Origin: Comamonas endophytica
GTDB lineage: Bacteria; Pseudomonadota; Gammaproteobacteria; Burkholderiales; Burkholderiaceae_C
Length of the DNA stretch: 64,000 bases
Assembly: GCF_023634805.2 (NCBI RefSeq)
Contig: NZ_CP106883.1
Coordinates: 1 to 64,000, forward strand
Direction of reading: 5' to 3'
Position numbers and translations under genes: made by a program. Positions within the stretch are counted from its first letter, which is position 1. Each line of letters starts with the position of its first letter. Positions 1,321-32,364 of this stretch are shown here, one piece after another. The notes under the pieces are model-generated. The model was given only the letters and a program-made list of their open reading frames with translations, was not told the DNA's origin and ran no database searches.

Positions 1321-1542
1321 CCGCGTGGATAATCCAGCGTAGCACGCAGGCCGCAATTAATCCTCCATAGACTATATTTTCCGCAAGGAATTGCGCCACT
1401 CTTCCAAAGTTGCCTTAAATTTCCTTTGTGCAGGCTTCGAGCTTTCAAAAGTTTCGCTAAATTTCCTTGATTTTCATTAAATTGCTTTGCACGCATCGCT
1501 AGAAATCTGCTTGGTTTGAGCGCACGCGCTAAGGAGAACAGC

Positions 1543-1899: not shown

Positions 1900-1915
1900 A
1901 TCAAGAGGATTTAAA

Positions 1916-2635: not shown

Positions 2636-2646
2636 GGGAGGCAACG

Positions 2647-3099: not shown

Positions 3100-3159
3100 T
3101 AAGATGCTGATTGCCCCGTCTACGTAGGGGGTCCTCTCACTACGGAAACAGGAGGTGCC

Positions 3160-3414
3160 ATGCGAACGGATTCGCAAGACGCCGATGACGCACACAGCAA
3201 AGCGATCTCCCCAGAGCGATTGATCTTCGCTCGCAACTTCCGTAAAGCACGGACAAAAGCCAAGTTGACCCAGCGGGGCGTCACCAAGCGAACCGGATTC
3301 GCCCAGTCATGGATCAGCGCAGTTGAAACAGGACGTAGCAATATCAATCTCGACAACATGGCAGTTTTAGCCAAATGCGTTGACGTTCCGCTCTGGCAAC
3401 TCCTTGTGCCATAG
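3160..3414 (+). CDS. XRE-family helix-turn-helix regulator
   Basis: An 84-residue DNA-binding protein. Residues about 22-78 form a Cro/C1-type helix-turn-helix: ARNFRKARTKAKLTQRGVTK, then AQSWISAVETGRSNINLDNM. It has its own ribosome site (ACAGGAGGTGCC) and lies alone between traM and the trb operon, followed by a strong terminator. It is a plausible controller of trb and of itself, with the palindrome at 3515-3532 as a candidate operator (inference). No enzymatic domain is present. Confidence 0.8.
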   Translation: MRTDSQDADDAHSKAISPERLIFARNFRKARTKAKLTQRGVTKRTGFAQSWISAVETGRSNINLDNMAVLAKCVDVPLWQLLVP

Positions 3415-3450
3415 GAAAAAAATTGGCTTAAACCTCCATCCATAATGGAT

Positions 3451-3482
3451 AAAACCATGCTTCTGGGCATGGTTTTTTTTTG
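3451..3482 (+). terminator. Rho-independent terminator after the XRE gene
   Basis: Stem AACCATGC with GCATGGTT around a short TTCTGG-type loop, then a run of about ten T. It separates the traKLM/XRE transcript from the trb promoter. Confidence 0.85.
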
Positions 3483-3514
3483 TTTCATGTGTATGTTGCG
3501 CCATTTTTCCAATT

Positions 3515-3532
3515 GATAGTCTACTGACTATC
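3515..3532. promoter_or_regulatory. Perfect palindrome, candidate operator of the trb operon
   Basis: GATAGTC-TACT-GACTATC, two perfect 7-bp arms with a 4-bp spacer, 61 bp upstream of the trbB start in the only gap large enough for the trb promoter. A role as binding site for the upstream XRE protein is inference from position. Confidence 0.55.
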
Positions 3533-3592
3533 ACGCCGCACAGGCATTGGTGACCGAACGCGCCAGGAAAGCACCCAAGGACGGGGGGCAAT

Positions 3593-4564
3593 ATGCAAAG
3601 TTCAGAACCCTTCAACCTGTCACTGAACCGATCGGAGCATGAGCGCCGCATCAATGAGAAGCTGCGCCGCGAACTTGGTCCGAACATCTGCCGGCTCCTG
3701 GAAGATCCGGATGTGATCGAGATCATGCTCAACCCCGACGGAAAGTTGTGGGTGGAATGCCTTGGGGCGCCGATGGTATCGATCGGGGGGCTTTCAGCCT
3801 CGCAAGCAGAGTCGCTCATGGGGACGGTGGCCTCGACCCTGAAGACGCAGATAACCGCTCAGAACCCCATCCTGGAATGCGAGTTGCCGCTGGACGGCTC
3901 GCGTTTCGAGGCGCTGATCCCTCCCGTTGTGCGCTCGCCTACCTTCACCATCCGCAAGAAGGCGATCAGGATCTTTTCGCTGGATGACTATGTAGACGCT
4001 GGGACCATGAACTCGGACCAGCGTGACGCGATCCAGGCGGCTGTGCGCAACCGACGCAACATCCTGGTGGTGGGGGGAACGGGGACCGGCAAGACGACGC
4101 TCACCAACGCCATCACCGACTACATGACGAAAGTCTGTCCCCAGGATCGGCTGGCGATCATCGAGGACACCGGCGAGCTGCAATGCAATGCGCCCAATGC
4201 CGTGACGATGAGGTCCGTCGATCACGTGGACATGACGCGGCTGCTCAAGGCCACGATGCGGCTGCGCCCGGACCGGATCCTGGTGGGCGAAGTCCGCGAT
4301 GGCGCTGCCCTGGCGCTGCTCAAGGCCTGGAACACGGGGCACCCCGGCGGGGCTGCAACCGTGCACGCGAACTCGGCTGCTGCCGGATTGATCCGCCTGG
4401 AACAGCTGGTCGCTGAAGCCACCCAGGCACCAATGCAATCGCTCATCGCCGAAGCCATCGATCTGATTGTTTCCATCGGGAAGGAGAGCGGCAAAAGGCG
4501 CGTTCAGGAGGTCGTCTTGGTTGAAGCCTACGACGGCCATGCTTACGTCACCAAACCAGTCTAG
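3593..4564 (+). CDS. trbB: TrbB/VirB11-type secretion ATPase
   Basis: A 323-residue hexameric traffic ATPase powering the type IV secretion channel on the cytoplasmic face. Walker A VVGGTGTGKTTL is at about residues 159-170, the Asp box AIIEDTGELQ near 193, and the Walker B region RPDRILVGEVRDGAAL at about 226-241, followed by the His box GHPGGAATVHANS. The length is normal for TrbB. The start follows GGGGGG, eight bases away. It is the first gene of the trb operon, 8 bp before trbC. Confidence 0.95.
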   Translation: MQSSEPFNLSLNRSEHERRINEKLRRELGPNICRLLEDPDVIEIMLNPDGKLWVECLGAPMVSIGGLSASQAESLMGTVASTLKTQITAQNPILECELPLDGSRFEALIPPVVRSPTFTIRKKAIRIFSLDDYVDAGTMNSDQRDAIQAAVRNRRNILVVGGTGTGKTTLTNAITDYMTKVCPQDRLAIIEDTGELQCNAPNAVTMRSVDHVDMTRLLKATMRLRPDRILVGEVRDGAALALLKAWNTGHPGGAATVHANSAAAGLIRLEQLVAEATQAPMQSLIAEAIDLIVSIGKESGKRRVQEVVLVEAYDGHAYVTKPV

Positions 4565-4572
4565 AGGTCCTT

Positions 4573-5058
4573 ATGCAAGTTGCATCCACTTCGGCACCGT
4601 CCTCACTCACCGGCAAGGCGTGGGCCATCGTATCCAGCCCGTACTTCTGGCTGGGTGTTGTCCTCGTGGTTTTTCTGTTCGGCCTCATCCAGCCTGCGCA
4701 TGCAGCGGATGCGTCCGATGGTGGCGGCGCCGGCCTGCCGTGGGAAGTCCCCCTGGGCAAGCTCAAGAAATCGGTGAGCGGGCCGGTGGCCTTTGCCATC
4801 GCGCTGCTGGGGATCATTGCCTGCGGATCCACGCTCATCTGGGGTGGCGAAGTGTCGGAGTTCACCCGCCGGATGGTCTATGTCGTCCTGGTGGTCTGCA
4901 TGATCGTCTTTGCCAACACCATGCTGACGGGCGCGCTGTTCTCGGGTGCCTTGGTGCCCTCAAGCTGCCGCTGGTGCGGCAATGCATACCCAGCCACAGC
5001 CGGCGCGCTGGCCGGCCCTGGGAGGCACCAATGGATAGCAACGAACCGCTGCGCCTGA
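4573..5058 (+). CDS. trbC: TrbC/VirB2-type conjugative prepilin
   Basis: Pilin precursor. A signal peptide ends near residue 44 (IQPAHA before ADASDG), then LPWEVPLGKLKKSVSGPVAF and two hydrophobic helices with the family pattern FAIALLGIIACGSTLIWGGE and EFTRRMVYVVLVVCMIVFAN. The last 30 residues after SGALVP are Cys/Trp-rich and unlike other TrbC tails, and the gene overlaps trbD by 28 bp. This could be a natural extension or a small indel near 4950. Function is secure from the core; the C-terminus is uncertain. Confidence 0.88.
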   Translation: MQVASTSAPSSLTGKAWAIVSSPYFWLGVVLVVFLFGLIQPAHAADASDGGGAGLPWEVPLGKLKKSVSGPVAFAIALLGIIACGSTLIWGGEVSEFTRRMVYVVLVVCMIVFANTMLTGALFSGALVPSSCRWCGNAYPATAGALAGPGRHQWIATNRCA

Positions 5059-5345
5059 CGCCATTTCACCGGGCGCTGCACCGCCCGCAGCAAATCATGG
5101 GCGGAGAGCGCGAGCTGATGCTGTTCTCCATGCTGATTGCCGGTGGCCTGGTGGTTTCGGCGCTCAACCTGCTGGCAACGGGCATTGGCCTGGTGCTCTG
5201 GCTGGTCTGTGTCTATGGCCTGCGCAAGATGGCCAAGGCCGATCCTGAAATGTCGAAGGTCTATCTGCGGCAACTGAAATACCGGGCCTACTACAGCCCG
5301 TTTTCCCGGCCCTTCCGCCTCGCGAAATCGCCCCGGGTCTACTAG
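5031..5345 (+). CDS. trbD: TrbD/VirB3-like inner-membrane protein
   Basis: A 104-residue protein of the mating-pair apparatus that partners the TrbE ATPase. It starts MDSNEPLRLTPFHRALHRPQ, a typical TrbD N-terminus, followed by two membrane segments around residues 28-65. The ATG at 5031 follows GGGAGG. A much longer open frame upstream of it is a shadow of trbC. It is followed 12 bp later by trbE. Confidence 0.9.
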   Translation: MDSNEPLRLTPFHRALHRPQQIMGGERELMLFSMLIAGGLVVSALNLLATGIGLVLWLVCVYGLRKMAKADPEMSKVYLRQLKYRAYYSPFSRPFRLAKSPRVY

Positions 5346-16997: not shown

Positions 16998-17324
16998 CTA
17001 CGCTACCGCTTTGCCGCTCAGATCGGCGAAGTTATTGATCTTCACCGCGCCGTCCGGGAAGCGCGCCACGATCTCCAGCTGTCCGCCCATCGCCTCGATG
17101 TGACTGCGTAGCGTGGAAAGGTACATATCCGTGCGCCTCTCCATTTTGGCAATGGAAGGCTGCTGAACGCGGAGTACATCCGCCAGCATCTTTTGCGACA
17201 GGCCACGCGCTTGGCGCAGCTCATTGAGCGGCATCTCGGCAAGCATTGCCTGTGCCTGAACCTCGGCGCGGGCCTGTGCCTCGGGTGACATTTGCTGCCG
17301 CAGTTCAGAGAATTTCTTAGCCAT
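16998..17324 (-). CDS. higA: HigA-type XRE antitoxin
   Basis: A 108-residue antitoxin. The helix-turn-helix is LNELRQARGLSQKMLADVLR and QPSIAKMERRTDMYLSTLRS, followed by IEAMGGQLEIVARFPDG, a pattern seen in antitoxins paired with HigB/RelE toxins. Its start overlaps the toxin gene's end by 8 bp, with the toxin upstream, as in higBA loci. Such antitoxins also repress their own promoter. Confidence 0.88.
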   Translation of the reverse strand: MAKKFSELRQQMSPEAQARAEVQAQAMLAEMPLNELRQARGLSQKMLADVLRVQQPSIAKMERRTDMYLSTLRSHIEAMGGQLEIVARFPDGAVKINNFADLSGKAVA

Positions 17325-17682
17325 TGATCAGCCCTTCCTTTCGAAGTTGCTCCAGATGTTCGTCGTAAAGCCTGTCGGCGATGGGAACATGGACGTCATA
17401 CCAACGGTCGTTTCCTGTCTTGTCCCCGCCAATCAACAAAATAGCTGATCGTCGGGGATCAAACGCGTACAAGGTTCGAAGTGGGCGCCCATCATGCTGA
17501 GTGCGCAATTCCCGCATATGGCTGTGCCGTGAGCCATTGATTCCGCTGCTATGAGGAAAACCCAGGGTAGGCCCACGCGCTTCCAACAGACGTACCGATG
17601 TATCCAGCGATTCCTGCTCTTCTGCAGTCAAGCCGGCCCACCAGTCGCCAAAGTCATCTGTGTACTCGACATCCCATTTCAT
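17317..17682 (-). CDS. higB: HigB/RelE-superfamily toxin
   Basis: A 121-residue toxin of the phage-derived Gp49-like/HigB group, expected to cleave mRNA on ribosomes. Recognisable segments are WDVEYTDDFGDWWAGLTAEE, GSRHSHMRELRTQHDGRPLR and LYAFDPRRSAILLIGGDKTG. It is the first gene of the TA operon. Residues for RNA cleavage cannot be assigned with certainty by eye. The locus stabilises mobile DNA and lies back-to-back with umuD. Confidence 0.88.
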   Translation of the reverse strand: MKWDVEYTDDFGDWWAGLTAEEQESLDTSVRLLEARGPTLGFPHSSGINGSRHSHMRELRTQHDGRPLRTLYAFDPRRSAILLIGGDKTGNDRWYDVHVPIADRLYDEHLEQLRKEGLING

Positions 17683-17821
17683 GACTCAAGTATAGCTTCC
17701 ATGGAATATTCCGTCAAAGGAATACATGTAAAGGTCAAGCAACTTCTTTTAAGCGTGGTAAGCGCACCGTTAGACCCGCAGCGTTATGAAAATCATTTCA
17801 AGCTCCGCAACCAAACGTATA

Positions 17822-17837
17822 CTGTACGCATGTACAG
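17822..17837 (+). promoter_or_regulatory. LexA (SOS) box of umuDC
   Basis: CTGT-ACGCATGT-ACAG fits the CTGT-N8-ACAG LexA consensus exactly. A TATACT -10-like hexamer overlaps its left edge at 17818-17823, so LexA would block the polymerase. The proposed umuD ATG (17830-17832) lies inside the box. Confidence 0.85.
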
Positions 17838-18273
17838 CAATTCATTAATCGCCGGCCAGCCGATTCCTTGGCTTGCAACTCCTTTGGTGCTGCCATTAGC
17901 GGATTGCTCTGTGCGTGCCGGCTTTCCCTCTCCCGCGGAAGACTTCAGCGGTAAGCGCCTGGACATTTCGGAAATTCTGGTGGAACACCCCCAGGCTACC
18001 TATCTGCTGCGTGTGGCTGGGCCCTCAATGACCGAATACGGCATCGATGACGGCGATTTGATCGTGGTGGACCGAGCGCTGACGGCGCGCCATGGCTGCA
18101 TAGTGGTTGCAATCCTGGACAGCGAATTCACCGTGAAGGTTCTGCACCAGGTCAACGGCACTTTTCGCCTTAAGGCGGGCAACCGCACCTATCCCGACAT
18201 TGTTCCGCGCGAGGGCCAGACCCTCGAGATCTGGGGCGTGGTCACGGCCTGTGTGAAGCGATTCTCGAGATAG
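17830..18273 (+). CDS. umuD: UmuD-like SOS mutagenesis protein
   Basis: A 147-residue S24-family autoprotease subunit of an error-prone polymerase V. After the cleavage site A-G in [13 protein letters not shown] come the catalytic Ser in [20 protein letters not shown] and the Lys in SEFTVKVL, spaced as in UmuD. The Ala-Gly site resembles LexA rather than the Cys-Gly of E. coli UmuD. The only suitable ATG, at 17830, is within the LexA box; with the TATACT -10 this suggests a leaderless or very short-leader mRNA. Longer frames upstream run through the promoter and are unlikely. umuC follows after 2 bp. Confidence 0.88.
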
Positions 18274-18275
18274 CC

Positions 18276-18403
18276 ATGTTCGCGCTGATCGACGGGAATA
18301 ATTTCTATGTGTCGTGCGAACGCGCCTTTCGCCCCTCGCTGCGCGGCATTCCGGTGGTCGTGCTGTCCAACAACGACGGTTGCGCCATTGCCAGATCAGA
18401 CGA
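18276..18403 (+). pseudogene. umuC: umuC 5' fragment (interrupted by arsenic element)
   Basis: The first 42 codons plus two bases of Umu[21 protein letters not shown], then [16 protein letters not shown]. Homology stops at the element's left end at 18404. The remaining codons resume at 26830, where G completes the split GA/G codon and the frame continues AKALGIKMGQPHF. The first metal-binding Asp of the Y-family palm (ALIDGNNF) is on this fragment, so neither part alone can be a polymerase. Confidence 0.92.
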
Positions 18404-18415
18404 TTATGTGGAATG
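18404..18415 (+). repeat. Left terminal inverted repeat of the arsenic element
   Basis: TTATGTGGAATG. It pairs with the right end at 11 of 12 positions. The preceding six bases AGACGA complete the host umuC reading frame. Confidence 0.75.
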
Positions 18416-18589
18416 CAATCATCCGTCAACCAGGTATCGTTTCAACATCATCGCGATAAGCTGTGCATATGAGACTCCACTTCCCCAAGAGTCGCAGAAG
18501 CCACGCTACGTTGTCATGGCAGTCGTGGAGAAATCGGGCGCCGCACGTTTTCCTCTGCCGCCGAATGCCCCCTCGTGACATCCATTCCG

Positions 18590-19789
18590 CTACAGGTTTG
18601 GCTTGTCTAGCTCAGTGACATGTTGCGGAAGCCGTATACCGTGAAGCGCCCAGAAGGCGGTGATTCCCAGCAATGAGGACAGCCACAGTGCGCCTGAACC
18701 CCACTGGGAGACGGCCATGCCAAAGAGAAACGGCGAGCCGGCTTGCAGAATGCGCGCCGGTACCATCAGCCAGCCCTGGCGCAGACCATAGCCGTGCGCG
18801 CCGAACACCTTGAGCGGCAGCGTACCCACGGCGATGGTCAGAATGCCGTTTCCCAACCCATGCAGAATGGCAAAAACGCTGGCCGCAGGGGCACCAACCA
18901 AACCCAGACAGATGGCGGCCAAGGGATGGGCAAGGATCGCCAGTTTTGCGCACAGCAGCGGATGTGCATTCCTGAGGAACCCGTACTCTGCCAAGCGTCC
19001 CGCCACCTGTGCAGGCCCCACAAGCGCTGCGGCCCAGATAGCTACCGCCACCGTTCCGCCTGTAATTTGCAGCAACTGTGGCAGGTGGGCAGCCATGGCG
19101 GTGCTGATAAACCATGAGACAGCGAACACATAGGCCATTAGACACACGGTGCGCCTGCGGAACTGCACTTCCTCGCTTGCGTCCTGCATTCCTTCTTGTC
19201 TGCGGTCGCTTGACCCCTCCTCGGCCGCTTTTGCAGCCCGTGGCAACAACATGTTGAGCGGGAGCCCCAGCAACAGGTGCAGCGCCGCCCAGGTCAAACA
19301 GGCCTCGCGCCATCCAAACTCATGCGCAAGATGGCTGGATAGTGGCCACCCGATGGTGCTGGCGAATCCTGCAAACAGCGTGATGCCAGTGATGGCGGGT
19401 CGGGCGTCCTGACCATAGAGGCGCACAACCGTGGAAAACGCTGCCTCGTACAGGCCGCTGCCCATGGCAATACCCATGATGGCCCAGGCCAGAAACACCT
19501 CGCTGGACTGGGTGGCCTGACTCAGTATCGCCAGTCCGGCAGCAAATACCAGGTTGCTTGCGATCAAAACCGGACGGCCACCGAAACAGTCGATGAGCCG
19601 ACCGGCCACGGGCCCAGTGGCAGCTGAAACCAGCAGTGCCGCTGAGAACGCGGCGAACACTGTGGAGTACGCCATGCCAACGGCACGGCTGATTGATTCA
19701 GCCAGCACCGCGGGCAGGTAGTACGACGATGCCCAGGACAGCGTTTGCGCCACACCCAGCATGACGGTGGTCTGTGTGCGGCGCTGCAT
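18590..19789 (-). CDS. MFS transporter of the ars operon
   Basis: A 399-residue major facilitator protein with about 12 membrane helices and the inter-helix motif GPVAGRLIDCFGGRPVLIAS (loop 2-3). It is the last gene of the ars operon, 12 bp after arsH. MFS proteins of this type recur in proteobacterial ars clusters and may export an arsenical; the substrate is not evident from sequence. It could also be an ArsK-like or ArsJ-like exporter, but no gapdh partner of arsJ is present. Confidence 0.85.
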   Translation of the reverse strand: MQRRTQTTVMLGVAQTLSWASSYYLPAVLAESISRAVGMAYSTVFAAFSAALLVSAATGPVAGRLIDCFGGRPVLIASNLVFAAGLAILSQATQSSEVFLAWAIMGIAMGSGLYEAAFSTVVRLYGQDARPAITGITLFAGFASTIGWPLSSHLAHEFGWREACLTWAALHLLLGLPLNMLLPRAAKAAEEGSSDRRQEGMQDASEEVQFRRRTVCLMAYVFAVSWFISTAMAAHLPQLLQITGGTVAVAIWAAALVGPAQVAGRLAEYGFLRNAHPLLCAKLAILAHPLAAICLGLVGAPAASVFAILHGLGNGILTIAVGTLPLKVFGAHGYGLRQGWLMVPARILQAGSPFLFGMAVSQWGSGALWLSSLLGITAFWALHGIRLPQHVTELDKPNL

Positions 19790-19801
19790 CGTCGCGTCGC
19801 C

Positions 19802-20521
19802 TTAAATGCTGCGTTGGTTGACCCGCTGGGACAGCGCCTCGGCGCTTTCGCGCCGTTCGCTGTAGCGGTCCACCAGGTAGTCCGCGCAGTCGCGGGTCAG
19901 GATCGTGAACTTGATCAACTCCTCCATCACATCAACCACCCGTTCGTAATATGAGGACGGCTTCATGCGACCTGCTTCGTCGAACTCTGCAAAGGCCTTG
20001 GCGACGGACGACTGGTTGGGGATGGTGAGCATGCGCATCCAGCGACCCAGCACGCGCATCTGGTTGACAGCATTGAAGGACTGCGAGCCCCCGGAGACCT
20101 GCATCACGGCCAGGGTCTTGCCCTGGGTCGGCCGTACGGCGCCCACGGCAAGGGGAATCCAGTCGATCTGGGCCTTCAGGATTCCGGTCATGGCCCCATG
20201 GCGCTCGGGTGAGGTCCAGACCATGCCTTCCGCCCATAGCGCCAACTCACGCAACTCCTGCACCTTAGGGTGGTTGTCCGGTGCATCGTCGGGCAGAGGC
20301 AGTCCGCGTGGGTCAAAAATCCGCGGCTCGGCCCCCATTGCTCGCAGCAGCCGGGCTGCCTCCTCCGTCAACAGCCGGCTGTAAGAGCGCTCCCGGGCCG
20401 ACCCATAGAGCAGCAAGATGCGAGGGGGATGTGCAGCGCGCTGCTGCGGCAGCAGCCGCGCCAGGTCTGGCACTTCGAACGATTGCATATCCAGGTTGGG
20501 GAGATCAGTGCTTTGCAACAC
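19802..20521 (-). CDS. arsH: ArsH NADPH:FMN oxidoreductase
   Basis: A 239-residue flavodoxin-like protein. The signatures are [40 protein letters not shown] and [20 protein letters not shown], all diagnostic for ArsH. ArsH oxidises trivalent organoarsenicals to less toxic pentavalent forms. The gene overlaps the end of arsC by 17 bp, so the two are coupled. Confidence 0.95.
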
Positions 20522-20936
20522 ATTGTCCTTTCGCGTCGATGACGGCTTCGCCGTCTTCCTTGGAGAGTGCGCCCTGTTGGGGCCGAGGTAGGATGTCCAG
20601 CACAGCCTCGGAAGGGCGGCACAGGCGGGTGCCGAGCGGCGTCACCACGATGGGGCGATTGATCAGGATCGGATGCTCGAGCATGAAATCGATCAACTGC
20701 TGGTCGGTCCACTTCGGGTCGGCCAAGCCCAGTTCATCAAAAGGCGTGCCCTTTTGCCGCAGAAGATCGCGCACGGGAATTGCCATCGTGGCCAGCAAAC
20801 GCTCCAGCGTAGCCCGGTCGGGTGGCGTCTTGAGATACTCAATGACGCAGGGCTTTTCGCCGCTGTTGCGGATCAAGGCCAGCACGTTGCGGGACGTGCC
20901 GCAGGCGGGGTTGTGGTAGATGGTGATGGTGCTCAT
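20505..20936 (-). CDS. arsC: Glutaredoxin-coupled arsenate reductase ArsC
   Basis: A 143-residue ArsC of the E. coli R773 type. [20 protein letters not shown] contains the catalytic Cys near residue 12, and the Arg residues for arsenate binding are within the thioredoxin-like fold ([16 protein letters not shown]). It reduces arsenate to arsenite for export by ArsB, 25 bp upstream. The start at 20936 fits the family; longer upstream starts overlap arsB. Confidence 0.95.
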
Positions 20937-20961
20937 GGCAGGTCCAAAGCAAAGGGGCGCT

Positions 20962-22251
20962 TCAAGCAAAAAGGCTCAGGCGCAATGCCAGGGCCGCGAG
21001 GGTGGCCAGCAGAACCGGGACGGTCAACACCGCACCGACCTTGAAGTAGTAGCCCCAGCCAATCGTCATGCCCTTCTTGGCCAGCACATGCAGCCACAGC
21101 AGCGTGGCCAGGCTGCCGATGGGGGTGATCTTGGGGCCCAGGTCACAGCCGATCACATTGGCGTAGACCATGGCTTCCTTGACGATGCCACTGGCACTGG
21201 AGGCATCGATAGACAAAGCGCCCACCAGCACGGTCGGCATGTTGTTCATCACGGACGACAGCAGGGCAGACAGCAGGCCTGTGCCCAGGGCCGCGCCCCA
21301 TATGCCGCCCTGCGCAAAACGGTCCAGTAACGCCGCCAGGTAGTCTGTCAGGCCCGCATTGCGCAGACCGTAGACCACCAGGTACATGCCCAGGGAGAAA
21401 ACCACGATTTGCCAAGGAGCGCCGTGCAATACCTTCTTGGTGCTGATGACAGCCCCGCGCCCAGCCACCGCCAGCAAAATGGCAGCGCCCACCGCCGCGA
21501 CGGCGCTGACCGGCACGCCCAGGGGCTCCAGGCCGAAGAAGCCAACCAGCAACAGGACCAGCACCACCCAGCCCGCACGGAAGGTGGCCGGGTCCTTGAT
21601 GGCATCGGCGGGGCGTTTGAGCTTGCCAAGGTCGTAGGCTGCGGGAATGTCACGGCGGAAGAACAACAGCAGCATGGCCAAGCTGGCGATCACCGAGACG
21701 ATGTTGACCGGCACCATGACCGCGGCGTATTCATTGAATCCGATATCGAAGAAGTCGGCCGAAACGATATTGACCAGATTGGAAACGATCAGCGGCAGGC
21801 TGGCCGTGTCGGCGATAAACCCTGCCGCCATGACAAAGGCCAAAGTGGTTGCCGGCGAGAAGCCCAGGGCCACCAGCATCGCCATGACGATGGGCGTGAG
21901 GATCAGCGCGGCCCCATCGTTGGCGAACAAGGCAGACACGGCCGCGCCCAGCAGCACGATGAGCGCAAAGAGCCTGGTGCCACGGCCGCCGCCCCAGCGC
22001 GCAAAGTGCAGCGCGGCCCATTCAAAGAACCCGGCCTCATCAAGCAGCAAGCTGATGATGATCACTGCGACAAAGGTGGCCGTAGCGTTCCACACGATAT
22101 TCCAGACCACCGAAATATCCGTCAGCTGCACGACCCCCAGCAGCAGCGCAATGGCCGCGCCCAGTGAAGCGCTCCAGCCGATGCCCAGGTTACGGGGTTG
22201 CCAGATAACCAAAACCAGGGTGAAAACAAAGATCAGGGCAGCCGTGAGCAT
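20962..22251 (-). CDS. arsB: ArsB arsenite efflux pump
   Basis: A 429-residue inner-membrane arsenite/antimonite-proton antiporter with about 12 helices. It is very close to the enterobacterial ArsB pattern: [80 protein letters not shown]. No arsA ATPase accompanies it, so it works as a secondary transporter. It lies in the operon between the two arsC genes. Confidence 0.97.
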
Positions 22252-22306
22252 AGTGTGGGAGTGCGAGGGGTGAGAGGTCTGCGTTCGTGGGCGACGGCGC
22301 AGGAAA

Positions 22307-22813
22307 TCAGGAGGCCGACATGTCGCGCGCCGTGCCTTGCAAGCGCGCCTTGTCCAGCTTGTCGGCGGGCAGGTTGACCAGTAGTTCCAGGCGGCGACGC
22401 ATCAGGTGCATGGTCTGGCGGAAGGCTTCCAGCTTGGTGTCCTCAGGCGCATCGCCTGCGGAAGGATCGGGGTAGCCCCAGTGCGCCGTGGCTGGATGCC
22501 CAGGCCAGATCGGGCAGACCTCGCCCGCAGCGTTGTCGCAAACCGTAATGATCAGATCCATGTGGGGTGCCTCGGGCGTGGCGAACTCGTCCCAGGTCTT
22601 GCTGCGCAGGCCGTCCACCGACACGCCGGCGCGCTGCAACACTTGCAGGCCCAGGGGGTTGGGCTGTTGGTTGGCACGTGGGCTGCTGCCGGCCGAATAG
22701 GCCTTGAAGCGGCCCCGGCCCATGTCGTTGAGCAGGGCTTCTGCCAGGATGCTGCGCGCCGAGTTGTGGGTGCACAGGAACAGGACATTCAAGGGGGCAG
22801 TGGTATCGGTCAT
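22307..22813 (-). CDS. arsC: Low-molecular-weight phosphatase-type arsenate reductase
   Basis: A 168-residue arsenate reductase of the thioredoxin-coupled or mycothiol-type LMW phosphatase fold, unrelated to the ArsC at 20505. The P-loop is [20 protein letters not shown] (CX5R with Cys near residue 16), and the Asp loop is [29 protein letters not shown] supplies further cysteines. The start at 22813 ([10 protein letters not shown]) is chosen over an upstream extension at 22894 that lacks family similarity. It is transcribed directly after arsR. Confidence 0.93.
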
Positions 22814-22921
22814 AGGTTTTAGCAGCAGGACTTGAGGACGAATGGTGCGAGGTGCGCAGACGGTCACCGCTGCGGCACGCGGGGAAAGGCACAAAGCAAG
22901 CGGTGCCGCTCGCCTGTTAGA

Positions 22922-23245
22922 TCAGCAATTGCAGGCGGAGGCATCCGCAGGCGTGCAAACAGCGCCCTGACAGCAGTTCTCGGTGAGATAAGCCAGCAGT
23001 TCGTTCATCGTTGGGAAGGCTGCGCGGTAAATCACGTTGCGCCCTTGGCGCTCCTGACTGACCAGTTCCGCATGGGACAACTCCTTGAGGTGGAAGGACA
23101 GCGCATTGGGTGCAATGCCCAACTGCTCTGCCAGGACGCTAGGGGTAAGGCCCTCCGGTCCAGCCACCACCAGAGCGCGGAACACACGCAGGCGGGCCTC
23201 ATGTGCGAGGGCTGATAGCGAACGAATGACTTGGGTCTCTTGCAT
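22922..23245 (-). CDS. arsR: ArsR/SmtB-family arsenic repressor
   Basis: A 107-residue winged-helix repressor and first gene of the ars operon. The DNA-binding helix is SVLAEQLGIAPNALSFHLKE. The recognisable As(III)-binding Cys are not in the helix but at the C-terminus (TENCCQGAVCTPADASACNC), as in the Acidithiobacillus-type ArsR with tail cysteines. It should release the operator upstream of its own start when arsenite binds. Confidence 0.95.
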   Translation of the reverse strand: MQETQVIRSLSALAHEARLRVFRALVVAGPEGLTPSVLAEQLGIAPNALSFHLKELSHAELVSQERQGRNVIYRAAFPTMNELLAYLTENCCQGAVCTPADASACNC

Positions 23246-23469
23246 AAATCAATGATACAACGATTATTGAATTAATGGTTAAAAAAGAGTATTTCGATCG
23301 CAATGTTCGTTACCGGTCGGCCGCGTGATGGGCGGGTTTGAGCTGGACTTCACAGTTGTACTGCCGTCCAGCGACGGCAATGCACGCGGCCTGTAGGTCA
23401 TCGCAAGCGAGCTTGCAGGGGGCAGTGTGATCAAGCACTGAGAATGGGCGTCTTGTGCTGCCGTCTTGA
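23246..23469 (-). promoter_or_regulatory. ars operon promoter/operator region
   Basis: The gap between tnpB-like and arsR. A dyad TCAAT-N12-ATTGA at 23249-23270 lies directly upstream of the arsR start in an AT-rich stretch and is the best ArsR operator candidate. The rest of the interval has only short frames with no family likeness. Confidence 0.6.
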
Positions 23470-25722
23470 TCATGGTCGCTGTGTCTTTTTGATGGCATTC
23501 GGTGTTCGTCCATCAGGCGTAATGGTGTGGCTCAGGCTATCGACCAATTTCTCCATGGCTTCTATTCCATCTTCAACCGCAGCACGCTCTGTGTCTTGCA
23601 ACGGGATTTCCTGAAGCATGCGCGTGAGATTCGCCCCCGCTTCGAGCGCCTGGGCCTTGGCCGAATCTTTCGGTAAATAGAACGAGCATTTGGCACACGC
23701 CATCCGGTGTGGACATTGATCGAAGAAGTCGTAGGTGCATAACCCATGTCCCAGGTCGTAGAAACGCCAGGGCTCGCCCCGGGCAGCTGCGCCGCTGCGC
23801 ACTGCATCCTGGTCGACGAGCACGGCGATCGTGCGCAAGTTGCGCTCGAAGTACCCAGCCCGCTCGATTGAACCCGCGAGCTTAGTCGGTGTCACCGTGA
23901 CGTAGTGTTGGGTGGATTGAGGTGAAGCGTGGCCGAGCCAGGCCTGCAGCTCGAATATACCCAGCGGTTCCCTGGCGTTGAAGAGCTGGCTTGCAATGGT
24001 GGCGCGCGCGCGGTGGCTGGTGATGCGACCGCGTGCGTCTTCCAGTGGTATGCCGGCCTTCCTGCACAACAGCGGAATGAGAGCTCGGTTGAGGTATGCC
24101 CCGGCAACGCGTCTTCCGCGATGCACAAATAGATAATCCACCACGCTACCCGTCTTAGCATCGGTCATGCTCGGATGAGGCAAGCGCTCTCGTTCCCAGG
24201 CCTCGACTGCATGGCCCACGACGGCATCAATCGGCTTCGTGAAGGCGGTGGACGTCTTGTTAACGGGCACGTCGAGAAAACACGTCGGTGAAGCAGCCAC
24301 ATCGTTGGGGCCTGGTTGCCAGCGGATACAACCGATCTGCAGCCGCAGCGATTCGTCGCGGCGTAGTCCTGCGAACAGCCAGAGTACTGCCAGGGCCCGA
24401 ATCATCGTGATCGGATAGCGTGTTGGTTGATCGGCACAGCCTTGCCGACTTGGGGTAGGTTTCAAGTCTTCTTCACTCAGATTGAGACCCGCCCACATTA
24501 GCTTTGCCCACGCGCCGTCGGCCACGATGCGTGGCTGGGGTCCGATCAGTACACCGACGGCGCGCGGCAACCCGAGCGCGCGCACCGGATCGAAGCGTTG
24601 AGGGATCCACTCCCATTCCTGAAGGTCACGGAAGAAGCTGCGAACGCTACGCAGATGCGAAGCCTTGGCAGCAGGCTTGAGCGGGTCACCACGCTGCTTC
24701 AGGTACATGCCACCGGGATTCGACCATCGGCCAATCGTCATTCGGGCAACAGTCGCCACGTATTCCAGCGCCGTCGCGCGAGTCCAGTCGGCAGGACTAT
24801 TGATCTCAGGATGTATTTCGGCGAGCCAGCGACCACACTTCAGCAGCGCATAGTAGTCTCCCGTGATCGAGGAGGCAGCTCGTACGGCAGTGGCTCTCCA
24901 ACGCTCGCACCACTGCAGCCACTCATCTGGGATACCGTCGGTCGCACGGTACTCGTCTGCCGGACGGCGACGATCGTTGACGCGGTGATCCAAGCCATGC
25001 GTGAGCAACTTCAGACGCACCAATGTCCGAGAGAGTGTTGCAACCCCACTGCGAATGAATGCCGCACCGGTTCGAGCAACTTGCTGCAATGTATGAAGGG
25101 TCAGGTCGTCGATACGTGGACTGCGTTGGATGAGCAGCGCGGTATAGAGCGCGTTCGAAACGCTGGGCCGATGGACCGACCTAAAACCGACCTTGCTCAT
25201 CTCGTCGAAAACTTGGCGGTTGGCGTGCTCTACGGCTTCGCGTCCGAACACCTTGATCGCGAGGCGGTACGGGAAGAAGCGTCCGATCTCCGGGATCCGA
25301 TCAAAGCCGCACAGGAGATAGGCCACTGCGATAACGTACTGGCGGCAGTTGCCGTTGCCCCCGTAGCGACTTCGGAAGGCCGCTTCGCTGCTGCACAGCA
25401 CGTCGAGCCAGTCATCACTGGTCCATCCCCAGTAGGCGATACCGCGGTATTGCATCTCGACAATCACAAGGTGAATCACAGAATTGCGTGGCGCCTGTGC
25501 GGCAGGTATGCGTTCCAGCAGTTCGTGAAGCGGGCATAACAGTCGCGCCAGTGCTTTACGGGACGCTGTGGGCCATTGCCGTCCATGGCTAGCGAAGTGC
25601 ACGCGAAGCACCTCCAGTGCCGCACGCTCGTTGGCAGCAAGCACAGGGCTTTGTTCCTTGAGCGAAAACGACTTTTGCGGTATCGCATTCGCCGGCGCGA
25701 TCGCGTTCGCCACATTGCTCAT
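23470..25722 (-). CDS. tnpB: Large tyrosine recombinase, TnpB-like
   Basis: A 750-residue site-specific recombinase with a long N-terminal region (about 1-400) and a C-terminal catalytic domain. Catalytic residues are visible in LRRDESLRL (Arg), SHRARATIA (His-x-x-Arg variant), WLGHASPQSTQHYVTVTPTK (His and the nucleophilic Tyr). A Cys-rich tail (CTYDFFDQCPHRMACAKCSF) may bind zinc. Size and pairing resemble TnpB of Tn554. Its start overlaps the stop of the upstream recombinase by ATGA. Confidence 0.88.
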   Translation of the reverse strand: MSNVANAIAPANAIPQKSFSLKEQSPVLAANERAALEVLRVHFASHGRQWPTASRKALARLLCPLHELLERIPAAQAPRNSVIHLVIVEMQYRGIAYWGWTSDDWLDVLCSSEAAFRSRYGGNGNCRQYVIAVAYLLCGFDRIPEIGRFFPYRLAIKVFGREAVEHANRQVFDEMSKVGFRSVHRPSVSNALYTALLIQRSPRIDDLTLHTLQQVARTGAAFIRSGVATLSRTLVRLKLLTHGLDHRVNDRRRPADEYRATDGIPDEWLQWCERWRATAVRAASSITGDYYALLKCGRWLAEIHPEINSPADWTRATALEYVATVARMTIGRWSNPGGMYLKQRGDPLKPAAKASHLRSVRSFFRDLQEWEWIPQRFDPVRALGLPRAVGVLIGPQPRIVADGAWAKLMWAGLNLSEEDLKPTPSRQGCADQPTRYPITMIRALAVLWLFAGLRRDESLRLQIGCIRWQPGPNDVAASPTCFLDVPVNKTSTAFTKPIDAVVGHAVEAWERERLPHPSMTDAKTGSVVDYLFVHRGRRVAGAYLNRALIPLLCRKAGIPLEDARGRITSHRARATIASQLFNAREPLGIFELQAWLGHASPQSTQHYVTVTPTKLAGSIERAGYFERNLRTIAVLVDQDAVRSGAAARGEPWRFYDLGHGLCTYDFFDQCPHRMACAKCSFYLPKDSAKAQALEAGANLTRMLQEIPLQDTERAAVEDGIEAMEKLVDSLSHTITPDGRTPNAIKKTQRP

Positions 25723-26756
25723 GCTGAGCCTCCCCGGAGTTGGTCCAGTCGTGCCTCATGGACCGCAGCCATGCTGCGGGTAAACCGGTCTGAGAGATCA
25801 CGCGCGCTCAGATGAATGTAGAGCAAGGTCGATTGAATGCAGCGATGGCCGGCAAAACGGGCGATCTCCTGGATGTCCCAGCCAGCACGTGCCAGGTCCG
25901 TCAGGCAGAGGTGACGGAAGCTGTGGGTCGTCAGTGCGGGCACCCCGGCGTGCAACGCGAGCCTGTGTACTACTTTCGACCAAGTCCACTTGGTCAGGGG
26001 CGTCGCTCGATTGCGTGAGGACTCCGATAGGAACAATGGACCTCGCGGGCTGCCCAAGCGACGACGTTCGGTAAGGTAGGCCACGTAGAGCTCTGCGCTC
26101 ACCACCGAGTAGGGGACAATTCGCTCCTGCCGGGTCTTGGTCGTCTCGGCCCGAATGCGAAGCAGGCGTCTTGCCGGATCGATGTCTCCCGTGGCAAGCG
26201 AACACAGTTCCTCCCGACGCAGCGCACAGTCATACGCAAGGGCGAGCATCAAGCGGTTGCGGACTGGCTCGCTGCGCGCCGTGCACAGTAAAGCCTGCCA
26301 ATCCGAATCGTCGGGAATCCAGGGAAGCCGCCGCTGAATGGGGATGAGGCCGCGTTGTCCGACACCGAACCCACCGGAAGCGGCTCCGCGTCGCCCGCGC
26401 GCGACAGGATTCGTTGTGCGCACACCCTCTTCGACCAAGTAGTCATAGAACAACCGGACAACGGTGAGCCGATGGCGGATGGAAGCGTTGGAAAGAGCGG
26501 AGACGGTGCTGGAAGGGACCTCCACGCCACAGGAGCGCCCAGCCAGTTCGCGCACGTAAGCAGCGATCTGAGCGCTCCCAACACTTGTGACATTCAACTC
26601 CATCCGTCGACAGAAACCGAGGTAGTGATCCAGCCCACGCGCGTAGGCGGCGACGGTATTGGGAGCTCTTAGCAGATCAACCTGCAAGGACACCCACGCG
26701 TACGCAAGGGCATCGCTGCAGAGGTTCGCCAACGCACGCCAAGGTTCTGTAGACAT
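25719..26756 (-). CDS. tnpA: Tyrosine recombinase, TnpA-like
   Basis: A 345-residue phage-integrase-family protein. The SAM-like N-terminal domain (TVAAYARGLDHYLGFCRRME) is followed by the catalytic core with Arg in DCALRREELCSL, HSFRH in ALTTHSFRHLCLTDLARAGW, and GHRCIQSTLLYIHLS with the nucleophile Tyr. It is nearest the right end of the element (56 bp inside), as expected for the leading transposase gene. Together with the 750-residue partner it would catalyse excision and insertion. Confidence 0.92.
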   Translation of the reverse strand: MSTEPWRALANLCSDALAYAWVSLQVDLLRAPNTVAAYARGLDHYLGFCRRMELNVTSVGSAQIAAYVRELAGRSCGVEVPSSTVSALSNASIRHRLTVVRLFYDYLVEEGVRTTNPVARGRRGAASGGFGVGQRGLIPIQRRLPWIPDDSDWQALLCTARSEPVRNRLMLALAYDCALRREELCSLATGDIDPARRLLRIRAETTKTRQERIVPYSVVSAELYVAYLTERRRLGSPRGPLFLSESSRNRATPLTKWTWSKVVHRLALHAGVPALTTHSFRHLCLTDLARAGWDIQEIARFAGHRCIQSTLLYIHLSARDLSDRFTRSMAAVHEARLDQLRGGSA

Positions 26757-26811
26757 CGTGCCTCCTGGGGATTGCCTACGCTACTCCAGTTGGGCACGGC
26801 AGTCAGTCAGA

Positions 26812-26823
26812 CATTCCACGTAA
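26812..26823 (-). repeat. Right terminal inverted repeat of the arsenic element
   Basis: Reads TTACGTGGAATG on the minus strand. The next six bases TAGATA (26824-26829) are foreign to umuC and are followed at 26830 by umuC sequence. Confidence 0.75.
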
Positions 26824-26829
26824 TAGATA

Positions 26830-28006
26830 GGCCAAGGCGCTTGGAATCAAGATGGGCCAGCCGCACTTCGAGATCCGGCACCTGGAGCAGAGCGCTGGAC
26901 TTGTCTGCCTGTCAGCGAATTTCGAGCTCTACGGCGACATCAGTGACCGGATGATGACGCTGGCTGCTGGCCTGGGTCCTCTGCAGGAGATCTATTCCAT
27001 CGACGAGAGCTATGTCGGCGACTTGGAGGGCGTTCGCGACCTGACGCAGCGCGCTTGGGCGGTCCGCTCGCGCATCCACCGCTGGACCAGCATTCCGACC
27101 TGTGTCGGCCTGGCACCCACGAAGACGCTGGCCAAGTTGTGTAACCACGTGGCCAAGGACGCTGAGCGCAAGCCGGGAAGCTACCCCAAGGAGTTTGCCC
27201 AGGTATGCAACTGGGCAGAAATGTCGGCAGCCGCACGCCAGGATATTCTCCAGCGCACGGCTGCGGCGGAAGTCTGGGGCATTGGCCGCAGGATCGCGGC
27301 CCAGCTGGCGGAGCAGGGAATCCTGACGGCCTGGGATGTTGCCCGGATGCCCCCGGGCAAGGCCCGCAGGGAGTGGAGCGTGGTGCTCGAGCGCACCGTA
27401 CTCGAGCTACAGGGCATGAGCTGCATCAGCCTGGAGCAGGCGCCGCCGCCGAAGAAGCAGATTGCCAGCACGCGCAGCTTTGGCCAGGCAATCACCGATT
27501 TGCCGCCGCTGATCGAGGCGGTGAGCGAATTTGCTACGCGCGCCGCGGAGAAACTGCGCGCCGGCGGCCAGCGCGCCGGTGCGCTGCAGGTCTTTGCGCA
27601 TACCTCGCCGTTTCGCCCGGGACCGCGCTTTTACCGCTCGGCCACCATCCAGCTGCAGCCTGCCTCATCAGACACCAAGGTGCTGGTGGGCGCAGCCGTT
27701 GCGGGCCTGCGCTCGATCTATGAGCCTGGCTACCAACTGGCCAAGGCTGGGGTGATGCTGCTGGACTTGGCAGCCCCCGGGCCGGAGCAGCAGGCGCTGG
27801 ATTTCGCAGTGCCGGGCCCAGTGCGCGACCAGAGCCCGCTGATGGAAGTGATGGATCGAATCAACGGTCGCTGGGGCAAGGCCACGGTGCATGTGGCCAG
27901 CACCGGGAATGCCGAGAAAGCCGTATCCGATTGGAGGATGAGACCAGAGCGCCGGACCCCAAGGTACACCACGGTTCTGGATGAGGTGCCGATTGCACGC
28001 GCTTAA
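26830..28006 (+). pseudogene. umuC: umuC 3' fragment (remainder of interrupted gene)
   Basis: Completes UmuC after the element: AKALGIKMGQPHFEIRHLEQ, the catalytic IYSIDESYVGDLEG motif, the helix-hairpin-helix region WGIGRRIAAQLAEQGI, the little-finger domain and a normal C-terminus. Joined to 18276-18403 it gives 434 residues, the usual UmuC length, with no frame error. An internal ATG at 26852 could give a product lacking the first metal-binding Asp, which would be inactive. Confidence 0.92.
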
Positions 28007-28227: not shown

Positions 28228-28307
28228 GCACCTGTCTCTTCTCATTTGCGCGAGTGAGCTCTGTCATCAACGATGCTCGAGTTAGTTTGAGCCTGACTTG
28301 CAAGTAA

Positions 28308-28640
28308 TCCAAGGTGCTGGGGAGCGCGGCTGTTGCGGGCCTGTGCTCGATCTACGCGCCGGGTTACCAGCTGGCCAAGGCGGGGGACATGCTGCTGCAC
28401 TTGGCGGGAATGGGTCCCGAGCAGCGGGCCCTCGACTTCGCGGCGCCGGGCCTGACGCGCAGCCAAAACCCGCTGATGGAAGTTATGGACCGGATCAACG
28501 GACGCTGGGCAAAGCTGCGGTACATGTCGCCAGCACAAGGAATGCCGAAGGTCGAGTTCGGCTGGAGGATGAGGCAGGCGCTCCAGACACCTCGGTATAC
28601 GACGGCACTGGACAGTTGCCGATTGCGCATGCCTACATGT
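28308..28640 (+). pseudogene. Second, diverged umuC 3' remnant
   Basis: The DNA from CAAGGTGCTGG at 28308 aligns with umuC from 27677 onward at roughly three quarters identity: GYQLAKAGDMLLHLAG, LDFAAPGLTRSQNPLMEVMD, RINGRW, then RMRQALQTPRYTTALD. Two compensating frame errors occur near 28508 and 28550. It is a relic of another umuC copy, not a recent duplicate, and is bounded on both sides by TATATATAC blocks. Confidence 0.8.
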
Positions 28641-30204: not shown

Positions 30205-31389
30205 GAAATAAAGATTCTCTTCAATCTTGTCAGCTGATAAGATTATGGGCGTAAACTCATCAAAATGACAAGATTAGACACTAATCTAATCGGCCGGATA
30301 GGTTTATGACAAGATTATTGATGGCAGTGAACCACCGATGCATCAGGAGCACATGTTTGTAGTATATATATAGGTATATATATACCTTCGAATTTCATGT
30401 CTTTTCCATGTTCAACCAGCAATGATTCAGGTTGCCAAAAGTGTTCGACCCAATTGCGGAGCAAGAAGTCGCTAATAGGGTTGCCATGAGATGGCTACGG
30501 CTTCGTTCTACGCGGGCAATCACGTAAGAAGACGCCACACCCTTTCCACTCTGGTATCGAACACATGACAATTTCAAAACCAAATCTTCTTATATATATA
30601 TACCTACTTCTTCTCTCGCGTTGGATCTTAGCCAGTCTTGTGATTGCAAAAAAGGGAGGATGCCTGCGGCAGGCAGCTGGCAACTTGGCCAGTAGGAGGA
30701 GGATGTACGCAGGCCTGGGGCGTGCGCTCTGTCCTGACGCGTCCTGCGCGGAAATCTCGATATGCACACTACCAAAAACATATGTATATACATATATACT
30801 TAGCAGTTGTTTCTCTACGTCATACAGACCCTCAGGAGTCGCAGAAGCACCCTACGAACGGATTCTTAGCTCCACTTCTGCCCAAAGTCTGATTGTGCTT
30901 CCAACACTGGCTGCTGGAAAATTCAGGCACTGCGATGAGTTTGTCGCAGGGTATTGAAGGAGATAGCGATGAAGCGTAATTTGGTAATCAATAGCGAAAT
31001 CACTACGGCATTGAACCGGGCAACAAGTCCCACACCGGGCCAAGGAGACGGCTGGCCAAGCAAAACCGGGGAAGATTCTGGTGGCGGCCGCTGGAACAAT
31101 CCGCCAAGGAAGTAACTTTTCTTGGTCGACACTGGCGAGCATTCCGCGTTGGTGACCTACCAGTGATCGAAAGAGTCGATTGCGGCAGGGCCCCCAATGT
31201 TGTGCATCCATAGCAGTGTCAATGCGACACCCCCGAAAATCCAGCCATCTCGAGTTGGGCCGTGATCGAACGGCTGAGCCATCGAAAGCAGGTATGGAGC
31301 GCAGACAGGTTGGCGGTATTTGTGAAAAAGCCAGTGGTGGTGATGCACCGGGCAATGGTGCTGCAGTGCGATCGCCTTGACTCAAGCGT
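30205..31389. other. Long interval without a recognisable gene
   Basis: It holds an AT-rich promoter-like stretch at 30225-30330, three TATATATACC blocks, and then GC-richer sequence. Short frames exist on both strands (the longest minus-strand frame 30852-31385), but none looks like a known protein or has convincing codon bias. Part of it may be decayed coding sequence. Confidence 0.5.
30362..30802. repeat. TATATATACC-type blocks 3 to 5
   Basis: Block at 30362-30386 is a near-perfect palindrome, TATATATAGGTATATATATA then CCTT. Block at 30586-30606 reads TATATATATATACCTACT. Block at 30779-30802 reads ATATGTATATACATATATAC. Confidence 0.7.
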
Positions 31390-32364
31390 ATGAGCGCGCG
31401 AGGGGGTGAAAACTCCGTGCTAATCGACAGTATCCAACGTATGCTCGGCTACATGGCCATACCTGATTACCAAACCTGCATGCTTCCGTTCCTTCGCCAC
31501 TTAGGAGATGGAAAAGAACATTCTTTAAGGGACACAGAAGAGGCGCTTGCTGAGCACTTCAACCTAACCCCTGCCGAGAGAGCTGAACTTCTGCCAAGTG
31601 GACAACAAGGAATTTTTAAAAACCGTATTGGCTGGGCAAGGACATACCTAAAAAAGGCCGCTCTGATCGAAGCTCCGAAGCGAGCCGTTTTCAAAATTAC
31701 AGAGCGCGGCCTGCAGACTTTGGCATCAAATCCAAAAAGAATTGACGCAAGATTTCTAGAGCAATGGCCCGAGTTCATTGAATTTAGGGATATATCCAGA
31801 GCCAGTATATTACAAGAGCAGCCTGTTGATTTACCAATAACAACAACGACTCCTGAAGAAACTATCGAGAACGCCTATCAAGGATTAAGAGAGCAACTTG
31901 CTCAAGAGCTGCTGGCAAAAATTTTGTCTTGTTCACCGACGTTCTTCGAACAGCTTGTCGTCGAGCTTCTCGTAAAAATGGGCTATGGCGGATCGCGCCG
32001 AGATGCTGGCGAGCGAATTGGTCAAACTGGAGACGGTGGTATTGACGGAATTATCAAAGAGGACCGGCTTGGTCTTGATACGATCTTTATTCAAGCTAAA
32101 CGTTGGCAGGGATCGGTTGGCAGGCCAGAAATTCAAAAATTTGTTGGCGCATTGCAAGGTCAGCGTGCACGCAAAGGCGTTTTTATTACAACCTCTTATT
32201 ATACGACTGATGCGATAGATTACGTGACACGTATTGATACGAAGGTGGTTCTCATAGACGGTAAGCAATTATCCGGGTTAATGATTGATTTCGATATTGG
32301 TGTTTCGGTCGCATCTTCATTTGTTGTCAAACGCATTGATTCAGATTATTTCGAGGAAAGTTAA
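31390..32364 (+). CDS. mrr: Mrr-type (type IV) restriction endonuclease
   Basis: Restricts methylated DNA. The N-terminal winged-helix domain (IFKNRIGWARTYLKKAALIE) and the C-terminal Mrr catalytic domain are both present. YGGSRRDAGERIGQTGDGGI, IDGIIKEDRLGLDTIFIQAK and RWQGSVGRPEIQKFVGAL match E. coli Mrr closely, with the D-(x)n-QxK nuclease core. Length about 324 residues versus about 304 in E. coli; the true start may be the GTG at 31417 after GAGGGGG, or ATG 31453, where Mrr similarity begins. It stands alone, bounded by AT-rich DNA. Confidence 0.93.
   Translation: MSARGGENSVLIDSIQRMLGYMAIPDYQTCMLPFLRHLGDGKEHSLRDTEEALAEHFNLTPAERAELLPSGQQGIFKNRIGWARTYLKKAALIEAPKRAVFKITERGLQTLASNPKRIDARFLEQWPEFIEFRDISRASILQEQPVDLPITTTTPEETIENAYQGLREQLAQELLAKILSCSPTFFEQLVVELLVKMGYGGSRRDAGERIGQTGDGGIDGIIKEDRLGLDTIFIQAKRWQGSVGRPEIQKFVGALQGQRARKGVFITTSYYTTDAIDYVTRIDTKVVLIDGKQLSGLMIDFDIGVSVASSFVVKRIDSDYFEES

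Follow-up and report, generated by a model that had tools for sequence, protein, structure and literature searches.

We analyzed the first 64,000 bp of contig NZ_CP106883.1 of Comamonas endophytica (here called the window), in which an 8,426-bp element carrying arsenic resistance genes, at positions 18404 to 26829, interrupts umuC. The window is the start of a 131,045-bp contig (C3) in a genome of 4.49 Mbp. The 5′ part of umuC (nucleotides [nt] 1 to 128 of the gene; 18276 to 18403, plus strand) lies before the element and aligns to the intact umuC of C. antarctica; the 3′ part (26830 to 28006, plus strand), which matches the IMS, IMS_C, and DUF4113 domains and also aligns to intact umuC, lies after it. 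From these sequences, we consider it likely that this is a cargo-carrying, site-specific element with two recombinases that occupies umuC nt 123 to 128, brings a 6-bp spacer of its own, and would excise cleanly.

Genes and ends of the element

The eight genes of the element are all on the minus strand. As a preliminary description of this DNA had stated, two tyrosine recombinases (PF00589) are among their products. tnpA (25719 to 26756) encodes a protein of 345 aa that also matches PF02899, and residues R180, K207, H278, R281, H304, and Y313 are invariant in 15 aligned sequences. tnpB (23470 to 25722) encodes a larger protein of 750 aa, in which R454, K489, H570, R573, H598, and Y607 are invariant in 14 aligned sequences, as is a C-terminal Cys/His cluster (C662-C670-H672-C676-C679). 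Both proteins thus have full residue sets, which we take to be the catalytic R-K-H-R-H-Y set of the family. No third recombination gene or tnpC-like gene was seen: the strand that carries the tnp genes has no open reading frame of at least 80 aa at 23246 to 23469 or 26757 to 26829, where a shorter or unrecognized gene is possible.

The remaining six genes are cargo. In order of position, they encode an ArsK-like major facilitator superfamily transporter (18590 to 19789; NF033733, 234 bits, below the ArsK cutoff of 400), ArsH (19802 to 20521; TIGR02690, 417 bits, above cutoff), a glutaredoxin-type ArsC whose start may lie further in (20505 to 20969; TIGR00014, 141.6 bits, above cutoff), ArsB (20962 to 22251; TIGR00935, 706 bits, above cutoff), an arsenate reductase of the low-molecular-weight-phosphatase type (22307 to 22894; PF01451, with TIGR02691 below cutoff), and an ArsR regulator (22922 to 23245; NF033788, 65.8 bits, above cutoff).

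Scans for the ends bore out the inverted repeats reported in the preliminary description. The repeat distal to tnpA, TTATGTGGAATG (18404 to 18415, plus strand), and the repeat proximal to it, TTACGTGGAATG (26812 to 26823, minus strand), are 12 bp long and identical at 11 of 12 positions; these are the only 2 matches in 64 kb when one mismatch is allowed (0.34 expected; at least 2 matches in 5 of 100 shuffles). Each repeat adjoins a 6-bp word. Homologous intact umuC genes identify AGACGA (18398 to 18403, plus strand), beside the distal repeat, as the core at umuC nt 123 to 128, the word resident in the gene. TAGATA (26824 to 26829, plus strand), beside the proximal repeat, is missing from empty sites and has a counterpart, CAGATA, at the same place in an element of C. 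antarctica; it behaves as though borne by the element.

Exact insertion in umuC

Deletion of 18404 to 26829 leaves the umuC frame open and restores IARSDEAKALGIKMG. Because many alternative cut points also preserve the frame, we placed the exact cut by comparison with homologues. A C. antarctica plasmid (NZ_CP054842) carries an intact umuC, encoding a 434-aa UmuC, in which record positions 30932 and 30933 correspond to window positions 18403 and 26830 with zero gap. Record positions 30341 to 30932 align to window positions 17812 to 18403 (113 of 128 nt identical in the umuC part), and 30933 to 32105 align to 26830 to 28002 (1009 of 1173 nt identical). In the host family (Comamonadaceae), umuC was matched in 71 of 399 genomes; of the 29 best-scoring loci besides that of the window, 28 include the 5′ part of the gene (L070 does not), and umuC is uninterrupted at the insertion site in all 28. 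The two junctions lack a target duplication. The earlier claims of an insertion exact to the base and of a removal that restores umuC without loss are thus confirmed by comparison with intact genes, and the reading as a site-specific tyrosine recombinase element that makes no target duplication is supported.

The core itself is less conserved than was first proposed. The target had been described as a conserved umuC codon, and the surroundings, IARS-x-EAK, are indeed conserved, but the core word varies among genes: the intact C. antarctica umuC has GGACGA where the window has AGACGA. All 29 core words from intact umuC genes of the family have the form N-codon-GA. AGACGA conforms to this form; TAGATA does not and has at least three mismatches from each of the 29.

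Because the gene is cut within codon 43, an inactive polymerase is to be expected. A search of the genome with the 384-aa sequence of the 3′ part gave no other UmuC at an E value of ≤1e−3. All four matches at that threshold lie on C3 and come from two sequences, the 3′ part itself and a remnant of a second umuC 3′ end, each doubled by the overlap of the contig ends described below. This remnant, at 28272 to 28619, is 59% identical, has one stop, and closely follows the interrupted umuC. The preliminary description held that SOS mutagenesis is traded for arsenic resistance; such a trade is no more than a possibility here, and Rhodes et al. (2014, PMC4542609) reported no UV penalty from a different element, inserted in rulB of plasmid pWW0.

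Relatives and their targets

TnpB matched 552 of 72,556 plasmid records at an E value of ≤1e−20, and 326 of the 552 were typed as conjugative. Within the genome collection, TnpB was found at 26 loci; in the host family, only the source genome itself (1 of 399) had a match. TnpA was found in 3 of 398 genomes of a phylum sample, the source genome included, and in 11 of 392 genomes of the family to which one of these matches belongs. The preliminary description had proposed a search for the same junctions in other umuC genes. Among 25 plasmid records that we opened, picked for diversity and not at random, 21 have a umuC-type gene at one junction or more. These calls were made by tblastn or by reading the flanks, often beside an annotated umuD, mucA, or S24-peptidase gene. 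The other four records are from Streptomyces, Acetobacter, Hymenobacter, and Mycolicibacterium.

Elements in umuC fall into two clades that use two sites. Clade A occupies the site of the window, umuC nt 123 to 128, with tnpA facing the 3′ part of the gene, and occurs in Comamonas (the window), Paracoccus, Pseudochrobactrum, Serratia, Escherichia coli, Klebsiella, Enterobacter, and Pantoea. Clade B occupies the LYGD codons (nt 230 to 235 in the numbering of the window), with tnpA facing the 5′ part, and occurs in Pantoea, Acinetobacter, Pseudomonas, Citrobacter, and other hosts. In a tree of 54 TnpA sequences, clade A (14 sequences) and clade B (27 sequences) are on separate branches, each with support of 0.999; the clade A piece at Paracoccus locus L047 was too short and was omitted. 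At this locus and at two Pantoea loci (L017 and L048), recombinase genes of both clades lie beside umuC sequence and face each other. One contig (G799:C3) holds three clade B elements (L103, L112, and L113).

An outward scan from tnpB, allowing one mismatch, found the distal end in 33 of 55 loci, and in 31 of these 33, from several phyla, it is exactly ATTCCACATAA. The remaining loci either gave no match or offered too short a stretch of DNA, and the putative ends at L033, L038, and L039 lay far out. Proximal ends across relatives are close variants of one another. Outside umuC, Pfam matches support ssb as the target of four elements (L023, L025, L027, and L031), and a fifth (L035) is just under the cutoff (25 versus 26 bits). 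In these acidobacterial and related elements, the ssb insertions are seemingly at two places and have the same end sequences. Pfam also supports Prim-Pol as the target of L034 and UvrD_C as that of L053, and the targets of L028, L029, and L030 resemble ssb solely on visual inspection, with no Pfam match for L028. PAPS-reductase-like and parB-like targets, guessed by eye for L022 and L037 and by resemblance for L099 and L021, were dropped; L022 and L037 have no Pfam match.

Tentatively, these elements may form an undescribed class that spans several phyla and is defined by two recombinases, dif-like ends (distal ATTCCACATAA), a 6-bp spacer of its own, and reversible insertion into replication and repair genes that plasmids commonly carry, at conserved codons (two umuC sites, two places in ssb, a primase-polymerase gene, and a UvrD-type helicase gene). 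Mobilization of the dif-like ends by host XerCD was set aside, as the element has recombinases of its own.

The cargo varies behind similar recombinases: arsenic resistance here, copper genes in C. antarctica, and defense-like genes in enterobacteria. The nearest recombinases, 95 to 97% identical to those of the window, are those of C. antarctica, with copper genes beside the pair; the same plasmid has a similar ars cluster past the proximal end of the element, and its vacant umuC is elsewhere. A clade A element (L046) carries a WYL gene with E1-E2-JAB-like and LmuA-like genes, and two clade B elements carry genes of a cyclic-oligonucleotide-based antiphage signaling system (CBASS; L096) and a type II restriction-modification pair (L058). 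A copy in mucB of a Serratia IncN-type plasmid (L094) includes, by annotation only, a gene with a TcdA/TcdB-type glycosyltransferase domain beside secretion genes.

The two 6-bp words

We compared both words in 18 elements that have both ends at a known site (7 of clade A, 6 of clade B, and 5 in ssb or ssb-like genes); another 7, whose two ends lie at other targets, were left out. We assigned the native word to a side by its fit with the reading frame of the local gene and, at the clade A site, also by comparison with intact genes. The distal word fits the local gene in all 18 elements. Proximal words vary less than native words, with mean Hamming distances of 1.62 versus 3.24 in clade A, 0.33 versus 2.20 in clade B, and 1.40 versus 2.40 in the ssb group. 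Every proximal word has at least 2 mismatches from each native word of these occupied sites.

The pattern is clearest in clade B, where the proximal word is CTTACT in 24 of 27 elements; the others have CTTAAT (L056), CTAACT (L047), and CACCTT (L097). Of the 24 elements with CTTACT, 21 are in umuC, with 20 distinct 60-nt flanks whose median ungapped identity is 27.5/60 over 210 pairs, and at one more (L109) the contig ends at the flank. Words at the clade B site in 29 intact umuC genes all have at least three mismatches from AGTAAG, which is CTTACT as read on their strand. The 15 clade A proximal words are of six kinds (CATATA, CATAGA, and CAGCGA in 4 elements each and TAGATA, CAGATA, and CATTGA in 1 each). 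Six of the 15 (TAGATA, CAGATA, and CATATA) end in TA, as do none of the 29 intact words, from all of which they have at least three mismatches.

A pair of loci gives both states of one backbone. Up to the clade A site, L092, with a clade A element in umuC, and L096, with a clade B element in umuC, have 4,266 bp in common, at 97.0% identity. This site is empty in L096, where TGCCGA runs on into umuC; in L092, TGCCGA is followed by the distal end of the element, and CATAGA stands at the proximal end. Insertion therefore adds the element and CATAGA and loses nothing.

Judged from these words, the proximal word appears to follow the element lineage and the distal word the target, strongly so for clade B and moderately so for clade A. 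On this indirect comparison across the family, the earlier reading of AGACGA and TAGATA as coupling sequences in the sense of Tn554 is not supported, clearly where clade B is concerned and less so for clade A.

Several observations weigh against a spacer borne by the element. Nine of the 15 clade A proximal words (CAGCGA, CATAGA, and CATTGA) end in GA and could pass as umuC words, and CAGCGA and CATTGA have 1 mismatch from words of the 29 intact family loci. Because of these endings and near matches, capture of target words is possible in clade A. Three pairs of clade B flanks are nearly identical (at least 54/60), two elements (L103 and L112) keep CTTACT beside flanks that were not recognized as umuC, and the proximal end of L015 adjoins DNA other than umuC. 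For the C. antarctica element, 22 kb of sequence yielded no distal end. The word comparisons are also few and were computed without correction for the tree.

Proposed movement and alternatives

We propose that TnpA and TnpB would join both ends of the element into a circle in which the 6-bp spacer is the element's own word. In the sense of tnpB, the predicted circle joint is ATTCCACATAA-TATCTA-TTACGTGGAAT. Recombination of the circle with the target would then take place through one crossover, at the edge of the 6-bp core that adjoins the distal arm. The left flank of the target, cut from the native word and right flank, would thereby be joined to the spacer and proximal end, while the distal end would be joined to the native word and right flank. 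With a crossover at one edge, the spacer would therefore travel with the element, and the reverse reaction would excise the element and restore umuC exactly. Strand exchange by tyrosine recombinases normally takes place at both core edges, so an outcome with one edge would imply either that just one strand exchange occurs and replication completes it or that repair is biased. If the proposal is correct, the loss of umuC is reversible, and one platform would move metal resistance, defense genes, and a plant-pathogen effector among plasmids. On the tentative reading of a wider class, a crossover at one edge would also make each insertion a clean, reversible gene switch and a port for interchangeable cargo.

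Three other explanations could account for parts of the pattern. Movement of the Tn554 or SE type, in which the 6 bp of the donor site are carried to one end of the new copy, would make TAGATA a record of the previous host site. Unlike words at the two ends and two tyrosine recombinases agree with it, such behavior is reported for SE and Tn554 elements (PMC10214605), and the nine clade A words that fit the umuC core, including the near matches CAGCGA and CATTGA, are as it would predict. It sits poorly with CTTACT, which is constant in 24 of 27 clade B copies despite divergent flanks, with the distance of 2 mismatches or more between proximal words and native words of occupied sites in the 18 elements, and with TAGATA, CAGATA, and CATATA, whose TA ending differs from the GA of all 29 intact words. 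Moreover, SEs have the native word on the side next to intA, and the elements here have it on the distal side. We regard this explanation as improbable. A constant proximal word per lineage would also arise, with coupling retained, if each copy in umuC came straight from a master element whose home site has a constant core. This would require an undiscovered home site for each lineage (CTTACT, CATATA, CATAGA, CAGCGA, CTAATA, and others) and zero hops from plasmid to plasmid in every lineage; no home site was seen in the loci read, although no search was aimed at one. Such a history seems to us quite unlikely.

Least probable of all, in our view, is an element that no longer moves, the spread of occupied umuC alleles being due to plasmid transfer and homologous recombination. 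The conjugative typing of 326 of the 552 plasmid records would suit such a spread, but umuC flanks differ widely beside near-constant ends, the word beside the distal end suits each local gene, and L092 and L096 present the occupied and the empty state of one backbone. A mobile element that inserts at a fixed umuC site with a spacer of its own remains our preferred reading.

Plasmid context

C3 repeats itself at a distance of 90,870 bp, with a few short indels between the overlaps; the stretches compared were 90,000 to 96,000 and 100,000 to 131,045, which match window positions 1 to 5,128 and 9,128 to 40,179. This terminal redundancy of 40 kb (window 1 to 40179 versus C3 90871 to 131045) indicates that C3 is most likely a circular plasmid of ∼90.87 kb. 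A match at C3:114172 was considered as a second genomic copy of the element and rejected, because the ends of C3 overlap on the single circular plasmid.

Upstream of the interrupted gene, umuD (17830 to 18273, plus strand; NF007621, 146.4 bits, cutoff 110) has an unsettled start codon. An SOS (LexA)-like box, CTGT-N8-ACAG (17822 to 17837, plus strand), lies upstream of or overlaps this start and is the sole match in the window (0.66 expected by chance); the box follows the LexA consensus and may be functional. Ahead of umuD, at 16998 to 17682, are two small minus-strand genes (108 and 121 aa), and similar DNA in plasmid records is annotated as a RelE/ParE toxin and an XRE regulator.

Comparison with known systems

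Tn554 targets radC. The preliminary description had called the window element Tn554-like. By description, the likeness holds for the two tyrosine recombinases, one ordinary and one large (345 and 750 aa), as in the Tn554 family, and for the inverted ends and 6-bp words, but it breaks down at the target, which is umuC here, and at tnpC, which Tn554 has and of which no equivalent was seen in the window element.

Other systems are compared here as they are described in the cited papers. SEs have intA, tfp, intB, and srap, whereas the window element has two recombinase genes only; the native word of SEs adjoins the side of intA, compared with the tnpA-distal side in our 18 elements, the donor's 6 bp move on, and no empty site appears (PMC10214605). 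RIT elements have three recombinases and 34-bp terminal repeats (PMC10214605), in contrast to two recombinases and 12-bp repeats in the window. GInt islands (PMC5385486) are also tyrosine recombinase islands with target preference, and they share the ssb target with the acidobacterial relatives reported here, but they need ginABCD, whereas the window element has two recombination genes.

The closest parallels are units already known from umuC and its homologues. Two int genes with tmexCD-toprJ are inserted in umuC, which was proposed as their integration hot spot (PMC8547460, PMC9134201). Insertion sites are also reported to differ among plasmids (PMC8547460). Like the window element, these units, on plasmids and chromosomes, combine two adjacent int genes with variable cargo in umuC. 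Their cargo is different, the accessible descriptions report no ends, core, or spacer rule, and the likeness is by description, so that their int genes may belong to clade A, clade B, or neither. Pieces of umuC or umuCD near int genes have also been reported without ends (PMC10425158, PMC10015498). The rulB element of pWW0, named ILE, resembles the window element in being site specific in a umuC homologue, with a conserved recombinase side and a variable cargo side, and was shown to be active in matings (Rhodes et al. 2014, PMC4542609); it differs in having three recombinase genes, against two here, a 3-bp repeat, and the end CTGAGGG. We rejected a common site for the two, as the GAT of the pWW0 ILE is codon 34 (nt 100 to 102 of the aligned frame), 23 nt before the start of the core. 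The type III effector ILE of Pseudomonas syringae plasmid pDC3000A (L057; so named in PMC4542609) has recombinases of the same family as those of the window (TnpA 44% and TnpB 34% identical) and the same kind of ends. It belongs to clade B and lies at umuC nt 230 to 235 in the opposite orientation, with tnpA beside the 5′ part of umuC.

Our literature search, judged mostly by titles and with subscription papers largely outside it, found no paper giving exact ends, two umuC sites, or a spacer rule. The exact end sequences turn up in 14 papers, none of which, by title, deals with such elements. Units with two integrases in umuC or rulB have already been published, and the window element joins them with a spacer rule that is probably distinct. 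Exact ends, target cores, and a predicted circle joint are now available for a kind of unit that the resistance papers considered here describe simply as a pair of integrases in umuC, and the element-borne spacer, if real, sets the family of the window element apart from Tn554 and SE elements.

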